NCBI GenBank assembly: GCA_000525675.1
Contig: CP002190.1
Span: 1,674,001 to 1,738,000, forward strand
Direction: 5' to 3'
Length of the DNA: 64,000 nucleotides
Source of the DNA: Bdellovibrio bacteriovorus W
GTDB taxonomy: Bacteria > Bdellovibrionota > Bdellovibrionia > Bdellovibrionales > Bdellovibrionaceae
Position numbers and translations under genes: made by a program. Shown here in pieces: positions 50,065-55,823 of this stretch. Numbering within the stretch: the first letter of the stretch is position 1; each line of letters begins with the position of its first letter. The notes under the pieces were generated by a model. The model saw only the letters and a list, made by a program, of their open reading frames with translations. It had not been told where the DNA came from and did no database searches.

Positions 50065-50099
50065 AAAAAAAGAACACCTACTCAGGTGTTCTTTTTTTT
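50065..50099. terminator. Bidirectional terminator
   Basis: AAGAACACCT and AGGTGTTCTT form a 10-bp stem with a four-base loop, extended by A and T runs on both sides. It sits between the convergent TlpA-like and EF-hand protein genes. Confidence 0.92.
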
Positions 50100-50119: not shown

Positions 50120-51361
50120 CTACCGAGAGTTTTGCGAAAGCTTCAACTCTGCCGGTGACAACCAAATATCAATGATATCACCCTGCTTTGTTTTTCCGTC
50201 CTTTTTATACCAGAACTTCGCTCTTTCGCGAGCTTCCGCGTATTTCCCAATCGGCGTTATGATGCCTTTTTCATAGTTCAAAGAAATCTTGGTGATCATT
50301 TTCGAAAGTTTCACCATTTCACTCTTTTGAGAAATACCATCGCCATTTTTATCTTGCCATAATACGAGTTTATGGAAGTCCTTATCTTTTTCATCAATGA
50401 CGCCATCTTTATTCGAATCAAATTCTCGAAGGGCTTCAAAACCATTCACGTGGGTCATACTATCGCCAAAGAGCTCGTCTTTTCTTTCAATCAGTTTGTT
50501 TCCGTCGCGATCAATCGCCACAAACCACCCTGGAGAGTTAGCCTCTGGCCACATCGTTTTGCCCATTGGAAAAAGTGGGAAATCACTAGAGTTCGTAAAC
50601 TGCGGGCGCTCGTCATCGAAGAACACCATCAGTGGCGACCAATAACCGCCGCAGAAACCTGTTTGTCCAGGGAAGGATACGTTTACTTCCACTGAGGACT
50701 TGTCAGAAGCTACGGAGATTCCGCCGAAAGAGGCTGAGAGCAAACCCGGCTTGCCCATAAAGTCGCCGCACCCCTTGGTCGGAATGTTTGACGAGTAACC
50801 ATAAGCTCCATAAATTGGCGTCTGATCACATTCCGTAATAATTTGCTCAAAAGAATAAGATTTTAAATATATATCGCCCTTGGCGACATTGATATTCCCT
50901 TGATTATCAATCGTAACCCCTGTTGGGATTTTGGTATTCATAATCACAGCATTCCCATAAATTCCTGCATCTCCACCATCTGGAATTGAGTACTTACTAG
51001 ATTGCATTGGAGACACTTGTCCTCCGACCATCCCTTGTGCCATCACAAGCATAGATGGATACTCAACCCACATATCGAAAGGCTTACCATCAATCACAAA
51101 GCCGAGATTGGCGCGAATAACAGCATTAGGAGCTACAGGATTTCCAACTCCACGCAAATTTGTTCCAAAGCAGGAATTATTAATTTTAATCTGTGTGGAT
51201 TCTTTCCCTGATCGCGTGACAAGACCCGACGCAGGCGCTGCGATTACTGATTCCCCCGAACTAGTAGAGTTCACTGCCATCGGGAAAGACTTGTTTGCAG
51301 AAGCTGTCGTAGCCCAGACAAAAGGCGCTAAAAACACAATCAAACCATTTAGTTTAAACAT
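50120..51361 (-). CDS. Secreted EF-hand calcium-binding protein in a pilin-like operon
   Basis: This 413-residue exported protein starts with a signal peptide (MFKLN core, ATTASA). Near residues 314-345 are two EF-hand loops, DSNKDGVIDEKD and DKNGDGISQKSE, with the D-x-N/D-x-D-G pattern intact in both. The rest is beta-rich with several cysteines. I start it at ATG 51361, preceded by GGGGG; an upstream start would give a leader that is not a signal peptide. It is last of four genes whose first three are prepilin-like. In type IV pilus systems the calcium-binding PilY1 accompanies the minor pilins; this may be a functional analogue, but I see no PilY1 homology. Confidence 0.7.
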   Translation of the reverse strand: MFKLNGLIVFLAPFVWATTASANKSFPMAVNSTSSGESVIAAPASGLVTRSGKESTQIKINNSCFGTNLRGVGNPVAPNAVIRANLGFVIDGKPFDMWVEYPSMLVMAQGMVGGQVSPMQSSKYSIPDGGDAGIYGNAVIMNTKIPTGVTIDNQGNINVAKGDIYLKSYSFEQIITECDQTPIYGAYGYSSNIPTKGCGDFMGKPGLLSASFGGISVASDKSSVEVNVSFPGQTGFCGGYWSPLMVFFDDERPQFTNSSDFPLFPMGKTMWPEANSPGWFVAIDRDGNKLIERKDELFGDSMTHVNGFEALREFDSNKDGVIDEKDKDFHKLVLWQDKNGDGISQKSEMVKLSKMITKISLNYEKGIITPIGKYAEARERAKFWYKKDGKTKQGDIIDIWLSPAELKLSQNSR

Positions 51362-51401
51362 ATTTGCCCCCAAGAAAATTATATGCCCTAACCCCAAAAA
51401 A

Positions 51402-52385
51402 TTAACGAGTAATCTTATTAATCTTAAAATGAATCATCTTTTTAAAAACACTTTCTCGTTTGAAGACAACCTCATCAATGGAGTCTACTAAGAGCATAGG
51501 TTCACTCCATTTTCCATTGTCATAATTCGATTTAAACAGCCTTGCAGGTGTCACCCCTTGAAGACGCTCATCCGCATAGGGCTCGATAAAATAGCGCACC
51601 AAACGAACTGCTCTGAGGCGGACGATCGGCTGTCCTCCGCCAATGGAGGGCGCTGTTCGCAAAAAAATATCCGGAGTTGTTATATCTGCATTTGTTTCAG
51701 GATGACGTGTGTTGAAGATATTAACTGACGAAGCTAGAGAGGAGAGCGTTTGCCCTTGCACAGTTCCAATATATATTGGCGAACGAGGAATAACTCTTAG
51801 ATCCACAACCCCTTCGTTATTCGTAGGCCGTAAACGCGCTGGTGTGTCCAACATTAAAAGACGTCCATTCACCCAGAATCCAGGTCTTTGGTTGCCGACC
51901 CAATTGTTCCTGTTCAAAGAGTCGTATTGCAAAACAGCACTTACGTTGTAATTCGCCGGAGCTGCACCAACATGGTAAGCCGCCACCGGATCATAGACCA
52001 TTAAATTTCCAACGACATTATCGTTCACGAGTGCATAGAACTCTTTCTTTCCCCTTAAAGATAAAACTATTTCACGAGTTTCGCGAGATTTTAAAATGTT
52101 TGAAGGAACATCCGGGTAGTAGTCATAAAAACCTCCACCATCTTTCCCATCATCTAAAAGAGTTATATTATTATAGCTTGGCTCGATTCCGTTTAAATCC
52201 ATGAAGATAATTCTCTCCGCAAGATTCGTATCAATGGAGTCGTCGAGCTTCCTTGTCATTTCAATTTGCTGTTTAGAAACGAGCAACTGAGTTGTCACTA
52301 CCATAAGCGTAAGCATCGCCATCAGACCTACGCCGATGACAACTTCAACTGCTGTAAAACCAAGGTTACTTCTTAAGTTTCTCAT
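51402..52385 (-). CDS. Prepilin-like protein (PilW/GspJ-type), type IV pilin signal
   Basis: This 327-residue protein has a type IV prepilin signal: a short basic leader MRNLRSNLG, then FTAVEVVIG with Glu at mature position 5 (cleavage after Gly9), followed by a hydrophobic helix. The long C-terminal globular part is beta-rich and unassigned. Length and gene position fit a PilW- or GspJ-like minor pilin. Its ATG overlaps the TGA of the upstream prepilin gene (ATGA), so translation is coupled. Confidence 0.85.
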   Translation of the reverse strand: MRNLRSNLGFTAVEVVIGVGLMAMLTLMVVTTQLLVSKQQIEMTRKLDDSIDTNLAERIIFMDLNGIEPSYNNITLLDDGKDGGGFYDYYPDVPSNILKSRETREIVLSLRGKKEFYALVNDNVVGNLMVYDPVAAYHVGAAPANYNVSAVLQYDSLNRNNWVGNQRPGFWVNGRLLMLDTPARLRPTNNEGVVDLRVIPRSPIYIGTVQGQTLSSLASSVNIFNTRHPETNADITTPDIFLRTAPSIGGGQPIVRLRAVRLVRYFIEPYADERLQGVTPARLFKSNYDNGKWSEPMLLVDSIDEVVFKRESVFKKMIHFKINKITR

Positions 52386-52828
52386 TTTGCACTCATGACA
52401 AAGCTATATTCACGAAAAGGTTCTCCCCTTTCGGCCCAAGTCTTATGGGTGATTCTTAAAGTTAATTTATACAAGCCACGATATTGTTCATAAGGCCTAA
52501 TCACATAACCATAAAATCCTGGACATTGAGGACACTCTTTACGCGTTGTGATCAAGCCATCATCCCAAGCCATCGGCAAAGTCTCTATATCAAGAGCTAA
52601 AGAATCATCCCCTTTAAAATCGAAGTCGATTTGATAATTTTCAACGCCGGCTTTGATATTCTCTGCAATTTCATTTATTTGCTTTTCTGAAGCAGACTTA
52701 ACAACAGAACCTTTGGTGGTATTTCGTAGTGACACAAGACCACCTACAAAGGCCAACCCTACAATCGAGATCAACGCAAATCCGATAATCGCTTCAATGA
52801 TTGTCTGACCTCTATTATTCATCTTCAT
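52382..52828 (-). CDS. Prepilin-like protein (PilV/GspI-type)
   Basis: This short minor-pilin-like protein of 148 residues has cleavage after Gly7 (NNRG), then QTIIEAIIGFALI with Glu at mature position 5, and a hydrophobic helix. Its C-terminal domain has a CPQC pair (ECPQCPG) that could form a disulfide. I start it at ATG 52828, which lies one base after the stop of the upstream gene and has GGGAGGG at a good distance. Size and order resemble PilV/GspI minor pilins. Confidence 0.85.
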   Translation of the reverse strand: MKMNNRGQTIIEAIIGFALISIVGLAFVGGLVSLRNTTKGSVVKSASEKQINEIAENIKAGVENYQIDFDFKGDDSLALDIETLPMAWDDGLITTRKECPQCPGFYGYVIRPYEQYRGLYKLTLRITHKTWAERGEPFREYSFVMSAK

Positions 52829-52829
52829 C

Positions 52830-55775
52830 CTAAAGCCCTCCCCCACGCGACTGCTCTGCCACAAGGAAGCGTACAAGGCGCTTCTTACAGCTTGTCACTG
52901 CACGCCCTGGCAACATTCCGCAATCTGGGTCCACGGCTGTCCACTGAAAAGGATTCGCTCGTGCACGCAAGCTAATTGTATTGCAACTCATTCGGTCAGC
53001 CACAGTTTGTGCCGATGGCAACGGATGCCACACAGGTTCGTTGGAGCTTGTGACAGCATCACAGGCTCTTCCTGAACGAGATTGCAAAACATTGGCTTTG
53101 CGAAGTTCAGCGGTGGCCTGTGGATGATAAATAGAACTCCATGTGATACCTGCTTGCAAAGCTTCTGGTGCAATCTTGAGCTTTCCTACAATGAAAGTTC
53201 CGATAATTCTTAAAGGAGTATTGCGCGGATGAATCACCAATTCATCACAAGCAAAGAAGCCTGTAATAAAATCAGAGTTGGATAGAATTTCACAACGCCC
53301 TACAATGGAGCGAACTTGAAAATTTGCGTTGCTCCGATTCATTCCACTTAGTTGAAGAACATCAATGGCTGGGTCCTTTCCCATATCTGCATTACCTAGG
53401 TTAGCAAAATTCCAGGAATACCGAGTTGTATCGGCAAAGCTAGAGGCCCAACCTGCTCCCCCAAATGACTGCGATGGGTTATTACTCCGTCTCTTCTGAC
53501 ATTCAATCTCAAGCTCGTCAAAGTCCGGATTGTTCACGTTCGCAACAAGTGATCCACTTAAACTGCGTGCAAATCCATTCGGGGTCGTCCAAGTGCCATT
53601 TGTATTATTTGTGTAGTTAATAAACCCGCTGAGGTTCGTATTGTTTTTATCATAGATAACGTTCCCTCTATGATAAGTACCATCATACGCTAAAATCTCT
53701 ATTGCTGGTTTTGCCACAAGATCTCCGTTTCCGTAGATCATGTGCTCTGGTCTTTGCACTTCAACCTTAACTCCCACTTTTCTAGTACTCGGCAAACCAA
53801 AATTGTAGATGTCGTAGGACTCGATACGCACAATAGATGGGTTATTGACCGCATTGTTATATCGTTGCTGGTTTTCTTCTGCGACTCTTTGAGTTTCTTT
53901 AGCAGCCAGGAGATCACTTTCATTCTTCGGAATATCTTGGCCATTGAGTTTTTTATTACTGTTTTCTAAAGTCGCTATCTGCGACTCTAGATTTGCAATC
54001 TTAACAGGGTCACGGTAATCCTTGGGATCAGGAGTTGAGCCTCCACCTTTTCCTTTACCACCGCTTCCTGATCCACTCCCCCCCGCAACGGGAGTAGTTT
54101 CTTCTGTCTCAGAAGGAGCCGCAGTCCCTGTTTTTTCCTCATCAACAGGAGGCTTTCCGGTACCTGGATTGCTGGAACCACCCGACGGATAAGGCGGCTT
54201 GTCCATTTCTTTATCCAATTCTAATCTTAAAGAGGCAAGTTTAATATTATTGGTTGTTAATTGCGCATCAAGACTGCTCTTGTTCCTCAAGAGATCATCA
54301 ACTTTTCGTTTAGCATCTGACACTGCTTTACTAAGTGTGTTTTCGCGATTCTTATCTTGAACATTCGCCTTTAATTCCACTGTCTGATTTCGCGGAATAT
54401 TAAACTCGACCCACTGATCACCCATATAGAACTTCATTTTCATAATTGGGTTGCCGCGCCTATTGCCATCCCGATCTAAATCACCCTTCCACTTATCCAG
54501 ATTTTGACTCTGACTTATACTCTGCGAGTTAAAGTAGTTTCCATTAGTCAAACTAATTTCATAATCAAACTTCCGAGCGGCCGCACTTTTTACTTTAAGC
54601 TGTGAAGAAGATTTAGTAATTTCGTCTTTCGAACTAAGCATCGTGTCCATGTCATGGCACTGTTTCGCTAAATTACTATCAACAACAGCACCTGATTGAA
54701 TACGCGCAAAGTATTGAAGTCCCGCATCCAAACCACCGTCATTCTCTACACCACGCAAGAACCCACCAAAGGTTCTTACATCGCCCCAGTTCTGATGCCC
54801 AACTCCCCCCGACGATTTAGGTCTGAACGGACTTCCGTTCGTTAGGACCTGCCCATTCCCCAAATACACGCGGTCCGCAAACGTGACCGGTGAATAGGGT
54901 GGCGATAGAGTCTCATCAGTACCATCAAAAGGAAGATGAATATTGCGATTCACAAAAACGGGACTCTGAAACACTAGACCCGCTGAATTTCCTATCTCTG
55001 CTCGACTGCTGAATTGGTGAATTCCCACATCGCCCAAAGCTAAGTTCTGCTGCCAATTTACATCGAGCCTTAAATCATTGGGTGTTAAGAGAGCAAATGT
55101 CCCCACCTCACGTGGATAAATAGCCAACTGAGAGTTCATACTTAGACGAGTGGAACCTACCTGAAGAGGTTCTTGAGCATTCATCGACCCCATAAGTGCC
55201 ACATTCACATCGAGGTATACTTCACGGCCTGATTTTGGAATATAGACTGTATCGTTACGGCGAATAGTTACGCGAATACCATCCACCTTAACAGGAGCGC
55301 CAGAGTTATCACGAACTGATTTTAATTTATCTAAGACCGGAAAAAGGGGGTGATTTGTAGTTGCTGAACTCACCTTCATATAACGGTTAATCTCTGGCAA
55401 ACGAATCTGCGCAGAGTCTACAGGCCCAACATCCACGCCATCAATAAGTAGCTGACGAATAAAATTTTCTTGCTCGATAGACATAATCACGCGCTCAACA
55501 CTACCATCGTGTCGTAAGTTGCAACGGGTTGCATCGTCATTCATCAAAAGACCATCAGTAAAACAATACTTCTGACGAATACCAAAGATCACATAGTCCA
55601 TCGCACTGTTCATCGTAAAGCGCAGATTTACAACATTGGCTGTCTTGTTCACCTGCTCTGCTTGGCCGATTACATAGTTCGTTAGAAAATAAAACGAAAC
55701 GCCCATCACTGCTGTGGCCACAAGGACCTGCACCAGGATATTTCCTTTTTGGTTTTTAAATGAGTGATTCATCAT
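52830..55775 (-). CDS. Giant prepilin-like protein lacking Glu5 (PilX/GspK-like)
   Basis: This 981-residue protein begins with a prepilin-type leader (cleavage after Gly11), then NILVQVLVATAVMG; mature residue 5 is Gln, not Glu. Lack of Glu5 is the hallmark of GspK, the tip pseudopilin of type II secretion. The middle (about 480-625) has two heptad-like coiled-coil segments joined by a Pro/Gly/Ser-rich linker that includes GSGSGSGGKGKGGG-type sequence. The C-terminal 300 residues are beta-rich with cysteine pairs. It is much longer than any PilX or GspK I know. First gene of a four-gene operon; a sigma-28-type promoter lies upstream. Confidence 0.82.
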   Translation of the reverse strand: MMNHSFKNQKGNILVQVLVATAVMGVSFYFLTNYVIGQAEQVNKTANVVNLRFTMNSAMDYVIFGIRQKYCFTDGLLMNDDATRCNLRHDGSVERVIMSIEQENFIRQLLIDGVDVGPVDSAQIRLPEINRYMKVSSATTNHPLFPVLDKLKSVRDNSGAPVKVDGIRVTIRRNDTVYIPKSGREVYLDVNVALMGSMNAQEPLQVGSTRLSMNSQLAIYPREVGTFALLTPNDLRLDVNWQQNLALGDVGIHQFSSRAEIGNSAGLVFQSPVFVNRNIHLPFDGTDETLSPPYSPVTFADRVYLGNGQVLTNGSPFRPKSSGGVGHQNWGDVRTFGGFLRGVENDGGLDAGLQYFARIQSGAVVDSNLAKQCHDMDTMLSSKDEITKSSSQLKVKSAAARKFDYEISLTNGNYFNSQSISQSQNLDKWKGDLDRDGNRRGNPIMKMKFYMGDQWVEFNIPRNQTVELKANVQDKNRENTLSKAVSDAKRKVDDLLRNKSSLDAQLTTNNIKLASLRLELDKEMDKPPYPSGGSSNPGTGKPPVDEEKTGTAAPSETEETTPVAGGSGSGSGGKGKGGGSTPDPKDYRDPVKIANLESQIATLENSNKKLNGQDIPKNESDLLAAKETQRVAEENQQRYNNAVNNPSIVRIESYDIYNFGLPSTRKVGVKVEVQRPEHMIYGNGDLVAKPAIEILAYDGTYHRGNVIYDKNNTNLSGFINYTNNTNGTWTTPNGFARSLSGSLVANVNNPDFDELEIECQKRRSNNPSQSFGGAGWASSFADTTRYSWNFANLGNADMGKDPAIDVLQLSGMNRSNANFQVRSIVGRCEILSNSDFITGFFACDELVIHPRNTPLRIIGTFIVGKLKIAPEALQAGITWSSIYHPQATAELRKANVLQSRSGRACDAVTSSNEPVWHPLPSAQTVADRMSCNTISLRARANPFQWTAVDPDCGMLPGRAVTSCKKRLVRFLVAEQSRGGGL

Positions 55776-55778
55776 TAA

Positions 55779-55823
55779 ATTCCTTCGGTTATCTCGATAA
55801 TCTTATCGGCACTCCGAAGGAAT
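55779..55823 (-). promoter_or_regulatory. 10-bp inverted repeat over the ribosome binding site of the giant prepilin gene
   Basis: ATTCCTTCGG (55779-55788) and CCGAAGGAAT (55814-55823) are a perfect 10-bp inverted repeat. On the minus strand the second-transcribed arm holds GAAGGA, the binding site for the ATG at 55775. The upstream arm falls in the spacer of the predicted sigma-28 promoter, so RNA started there would lack it, while read-through RNA from the upstream gene would fold and hide the site. The 25-base spacer also contains a CGATAA/TTATCG repeat. Confidence 0.6.

Follow-up and report, generated by a model that had tools for sequence, protein, structure and literature searches.

A four-gene operon of Bdellovibrio bacteriovorus W that probably encodes a minor-pilin tip complex for prey attachment

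The first attachment of Bdellovibrio to its prey was called unknown in a transposon screen in which a mutant of Bd2210 showed no attachment, no killing and no rounding of prey, and fell into the same class as PilT (PMC6561027). Loss of predation in that screen has been reported for Bd2210, Bd2211, Bd2212 and Bd2723; Bd2209-Bd2212 are expressed in attack phase, and AlphaFold-Multimer places them in a four-protein complex (ipTM 0.852) with Bd2212, the counterpart of gene 1 below, as its hub (PMC12034629). A pilus-tip complex is not described in either paper (PMC6561027; PMC12034629). In B. bacteriovorus HD100, attack-phase FliA-type promoters have been mapped, with the consensus TTAAG-N16-CCGATA (PMC3627812). 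Among pilins, ComZ is GspK-like, with a solenoid inserted before its last strand; a position at the tip of the pilus has been argued for it, and it binds DNA (PMC6561018). The self-processing module (SPM) of FrpC begins, once processed, after the scissile residue Asp414 (PMC7078468).

The genome of B. bacteriovorus W is one 3.0-Mb contig, from which a stretch of 64,000 nucleotides (CP002190.1, positions 1,674,001 to 1,738,000; hereafter the window) was analysed. Four ORFs on its minus strand, at 50120-55775, read as an operon of genes 1-4 (Table 1). Overlapping stops and starts had been taken in the original prediction as the sign of a single operon. Genes 2 and 3 do overlap (ATGA), but this is the sole overlap in the operon: genes 1 and 2 are separated by 1 base and genes 3 and 4 by 40 bases. 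Gene 2 starts with the ATG at 52828, and a longer ORF beginning with TTG represents an extended start. On the minus strand at 55776-55822, the ribosome-binding site of gene 1 lies within a strong stem (TCCTTCGG...CCGAAGGA), which was not seen in relatives.

Table 1. Features of the operon and its borders in the window; functional and orthology assignments are predictions.
Feature	Position	Strand	Description
Gene 1	52830..55775	-	981-aa pilin-like putative cap without Glu5; predicted orthologue of Bd2212
Gene 2	52382..52828	-	148-aa minor pilin, PilV/GspI type, Glu5 present; predicted orthologue of Bd2211
Gene 3	51402..52385	-	327-aa minor pilin, PilW/GspJ type, Glu5 present; predicted orthologue of Bd2210
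Gene 4	50120..51361	-	413-aa secreted protein, beta-sandwich and calcium module; predicted orthologue of Bd2209
Gene 4 module, residues 243-407	50141..50635	-	FrpC self-processing-module fold with three EF-hand-like loops; profile and structure match
FliA (sigma-28)-type promoter motif AAGTTA-N13-CCGATAA	55803..55828	-	5' of gene 1; motif search
Two-way terminator-like hairpin	50070..50099	.	Between gene 4 and a convergent thioredoxin-like gene; direct sequence reading

A paralogous operon is present in the same genome (L049:5637-11075). When the two operons were compared in another genome (G006), the identities were 41.36, 36.56 and 39.14 %, and 31.6 % for gene 1. The first three values are those published for Bd2211/2725, Bd2210/2724 and Bd2209/2723, and the published identity of Bd2212/2726 is nearly that of gene 1, the start codons being different (PMC12034629). 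Judged by these matching identities, the window operon is orthologous to Bd2209-Bd2212 of HD100, and its paralogue corresponds to Bd2723-Bd2726. The prepilin mutation of the NC01 evolution paper (PMC9888234) could not be linked to either operon.

A search of relatives for the same gene order, proposed together with the original prediction, yielded 42 further cassettes, every one of them in the order 1-2-3-4. In the genus set the operon is widespread, usually alongside the paralogous copy, and in a tree of gene 4 the window and paralogue types of this genus fall apart into separate groups; gene 1 was not found in two genomes of this set (G008 and G014). Strong matches to gene 1 occur in 35 of the 117 genomes of the order, and the remaining weak matches fall in the coiled coil. 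A scan of bacterial genomes gave 24 loci, all in members of Bdellovibrionales except one, which belongs to a Deltaproteobacteria MAG. In a few distant species gene 4 comes first: the order is 4-1-2-3 in B. qaytius (L120:4667-10524) and in two MAGs (L118:3868-9737 and L107/L137, with coordinates L137:5094-10551), and the persistent adjacency of the four genes in this rearranged form speaks for one functional unit. Tandem duplication of the whole cassette, together with a more distant copy elsewhere, was observed in three genomes (L066, L073 and L076). In two genomes, extra secreted proteins with a gene 4-type module adjoin the cassettes (L117:3367-5598 and L136:8521-9867).

The motif AAGTTA-N13-CCGATAA has one match in the window, where 0.10 are expected, and this element 5' of gene 1 equals the attack-phase consensus mapped in HD100 (PMC3627812). 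With the same spacing, the element precedes 28 of 43 cassettes, including both paralogue types, as against 1 of 209 other ORFs.

The type IV prepilin signals predicted in three consecutive genes are conserved: a short basic leader, Gly at position -1 and a hydrophobic helix are found in genes 1-3 of nearly all cassettes. In the window, the sites read QKG^NILVQVLVA in gene 1, with Gln as residue +5, NRG^QTIIEAIIG in gene 2 and NLG^FTAVEVVIG in gene 3; genes 2 and 3 also match the N_methyl domain. Among the readable proteins of the cassettes, Glu at +5 is present in none of the 56 gene 1 products, which mostly have Gln, and in all of those of gene 2 (55/55) and gene 3 (52/52). The ORF reading and these counts bear out a first protein of 981 residues that lacks Glu5 and two following pilins that retain it. 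Given the 42 further cassettes of the same order and the invariant pattern of residue +5 in genes 1-3, the arrangement is not a product of chance. In pilins, Glu5 as a rule pairs with a neighbouring subunit at its N terminus, so a subunit that lacks it is suited to the top of a filament, as in GspK. The products of genes 1-3 are probably processed by a prepilin peptidase, for which the genome holds one match, at 0.60 Mb. A third minor-pilin cluster lies at 2.13 Mb in the same genome (L050:8492-12594); it comprises PilV-like and PilW-like genes and an 842-aa protein whose pilin-like start lacks Glu5, and has no gene 4. The 842-aa protein was considered as a homologue of gene 1 and set aside, as hhalign found no relation between the two.

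Pilus assembly genes were indeed found elsewhere in the genome, as PilB with PilC; a separate and complete type II secretion system (T2SS) is also encoded. Neither the window operon nor its paralogue is adjacent to pil genes. Nearly all genomes of the order carry the ATPases of the type IVa pilus (T4aP) and of the T2SS, and their co-occurrence with the operon therefore does not pick the machine. The T4aP machine is favoured because the attachment phenotype is common to the Bd2210 and PilT mutants. It is unlikely that the operon instead provides an alternative tip for the T2SS pseudopilus, or a short pseudopilus of its own, for the export of predation proteins and not for holding prey, the loss of attachment then being indirect. 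The absence of Glu5 from gene 1, as in GspK, would suit such a role, as would the completeness of the T2SS and the match of the first 63 residues of gene 3 to the GspJ of the same genome in a profile comparison, but similarity at the pilin N terminus is common to both systems. Moreover, the T2SS has a GspG-H-I-J-K set of its own in the gsp operon at 1.13 Mb, ~0.6 Mb from the window operon at 1.72 Mb, so that in this genome the four genes lie outside the known T2SS locus. The gene 1 family matches neither the GspK models nor the T2SSK domain, which the GspK of this genome does match, and hhalign finds gene 1 unrelated to that GspK.

The predicted model of the gene 1 product (mean pLDDT 80) consists of a pilin helix (residues 13-67) followed by a beta domain, segments of a solenoid with short strands, and an inserted beta-sandwich. 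Within the solenoid part, and flanked by strands, a two-helix hairpin with ~50 residues in each helix (475-524 and 590-644) forms a coiled-coil arm of ~7-8 nm, at 1.5 Å per residue; in the model the tip of this arm is disordered and rich in Gly, Pro and Ser. A structure search with the model returned mostly coiled coils. The best match of another kind was ComZ (Z 8.2, rmsd 3.7, 181 aligned, 8 % identity), a score within the range of chance matches; ice-binding solenoids and a tapirin came next. Profile searches of solved structures and Pfam gave coiled coils only, and Foldseek gave nothing below E 0.001. The likeness of the modelled protein to ComZ, a GspK-like pilin with a solenoid, is a lead and not proof. 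A competence-type tip, in which the complex binds and imports DNA, such as that of the prey, and has only a secondary role in predation, is highly improbable. That ComZ is the nearest structural match outside coiled coils and binds DNA (PMC6561018) would be in keeping with it, but the match is weak, the mutants already fail at prey attachment (PMC6561027), and the FliA-type promoter points to the hunting phase. There is likewise very little likelihood that the complex is an assembly fixed in the envelope or outer membrane and built from reused pilin parts, with no retractable filament, since the full prepilin signals of three genes and the cap-like Glu5 pattern count against it, even though neither operon is linked to genes of the pilus machine.

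Gene 4 had been described as a secreted protein with two intact EF-hands. A Sec-type signal peptide can be read by eye at its N terminus, and loops 2 and 3 are canonical, with calcium ligands that are almost invariant among relatives. However, the EF-hand-like loops number three, loop 1 lacking its Gly, and all of them lie in a module with the FrpC SPM fold. The C-terminal half matches the FrpC module as a sequence profile (E 1.6e-25), and residues 243-407 match its structure (Z 19.1, rmsd 2.6, 154 aligned). Pro243 aligns with the first residue of the processed FrpC module, and Ser242 thus stands in the place of the scissile Asp414; of 57 aligned proteins, 54 have Ser at this site, the window protein having Ser242-Pro243. 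The C-terminal half would be a calcium-folded docking module without self-cutting. In one cassette (L111:10010-11257), gene 4 has Asp-Pro at the place of FrpC cleavage and may still self-process. In the N-terminal half, which forms a beta-sandwich, a pair of cysteines (Cys64 and Cys237) is near-invariant. A structure search with this half gave weak matches to Ig-like pilus adhesins alone (Z about 5); these are not trusted. Pfam gave no match to RTX repeats in gene 4. Homology to PilY1 was rejected, as the PilY1 domain PF05567 is matched neither by gene 4 nor by its relatives; a search of whole genomes for PilY1 gave no matches, and since the control genomes were likewise without a match, this absence from the phylum is not used to argue that PilY1 was replaced. 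The original prediction, that gene 4 recalls calcium-dependent PilY1 without being homologous to it, is right as to homology, and the likeness is functional at most, the fold being that of the FrpC SPM.

The locus is best read as a minor-pilin complex of the tip type, dedicated to prey attachment. The conserved signals, the Glu5-less gene 1, the requirement of Bd2210 for attachment (PMC6561027) and the predicted complex (PMC12034629) support this part of the original prediction; the position at the tip, the T4aP as the assembly machine, the dependence on calcium and the direct contact with prey are inferred. It is probable that the operon, driven by FliA in attack phase, encodes a minor-pilin tip complex on a retractable T4aP that grips the prey. 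Against this reading, no filament has been seen carrying the proteins of genes 1-4, the operon stands apart from the pil genes, and the insertion in Bd2210 may have a polar effect on gene 4. Also against it, B. exovorus (G054, which we take to be strain JSS) attaches to prey, yet no gene 1 match was found in its genome, nor in G008 and G014.

In the proposed mechanism, FliA would switch the operon on in the free-swimming attack phase. Prepilin peptidase would cleave the products of genes 1-3, which may form a trimer in the inner membrane, similar to GspK-I-J or to the pairing of ComZ and a partner pilin. Without Glu5, the gene 1 product would need no subunit above it and would cap the filament. 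The tip complex would then prime a T4aP and exit via the secretin, and the gene 1 product would present its solenoid and coiled-coil arm at the end of the pilus. The gene 4 product would be exported through Sec, fold with calcium and dock on the cap in the role of PilY1. The tip would grip the prey and PilT-driven retraction would pull the predator in, the paralogous operon supplying a second tip. Read in this way, proteins so far listed as hypothetical become parts of a machine that can be tested, in which the cap, the two pilins behind it and the calcium module are each identified, and prey attachment genes are tied to the FliA attack programme. On the same reading, a fold known from modules that cut themselves and link proteins would have been given a structural use in a pilus tip after loss of the cutting site. 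More tentatively, the Bdellovibrionales may possess a class of type IV pilus tip of their own, in which an SPM-fold calcium protein replaces PilY1 on a ComZ-like cap armed with a coiled coil, the two paralogous operons are two alternative tips, and the first grip on prey is made by them.

The operon shares with the GspK-GspI-GspJ tip one Glu5-less cap and two pilins with Glu5; it differs in its gene order, in its location outside the gsp operon and in a gene 1 without a match to GspK models. As with PilV-PilW-PilX and PilY1 of T4aP, minor pilins are encoded with a calcium-binding secreted partner, although gene 4 has the SPM fold instead of a PilY1 domain. ComZ-PilA2, of the competence pilus tip of Thermus thermophilus, joins a pilin to a beta-solenoid, as the gene 1 model may do, and its gene likewise lies beside that of a partner pilin. 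On the other hand, neither a coiled-coil arm nor a gene 4 partner has been described for it, its role is DNA uptake, and its match to gene 1 is weak. The FrpC self-processing module of Neisseria (6sjw, 6sjx; PMC7078468) has the same fold and the same EF-hand-like loops as residues 243-407 of gene 4, which in contrast has Ser for the scissile Asp, no RTX repeat match, and a beta-sandwich with a Sec-type signal. The HD100 operons Bd2209-Bd2212 and Bd2723-Bd2726 agree with the window operon and its paralogue in gene order and in sizes; in the papers, they appear as hypothetical proteins and novel complexes, and not as pilins, a tip complex, an SPM fold or a FliA-type cassette. The operon genes as predation-essential hypothetical proteins and their predicted complex are already on record; the tip-complex reading, the gene 1 model with its ComZ lead, the SPM fold of gene 4 with Ser for Asp and the conserved FliA motif are new here.
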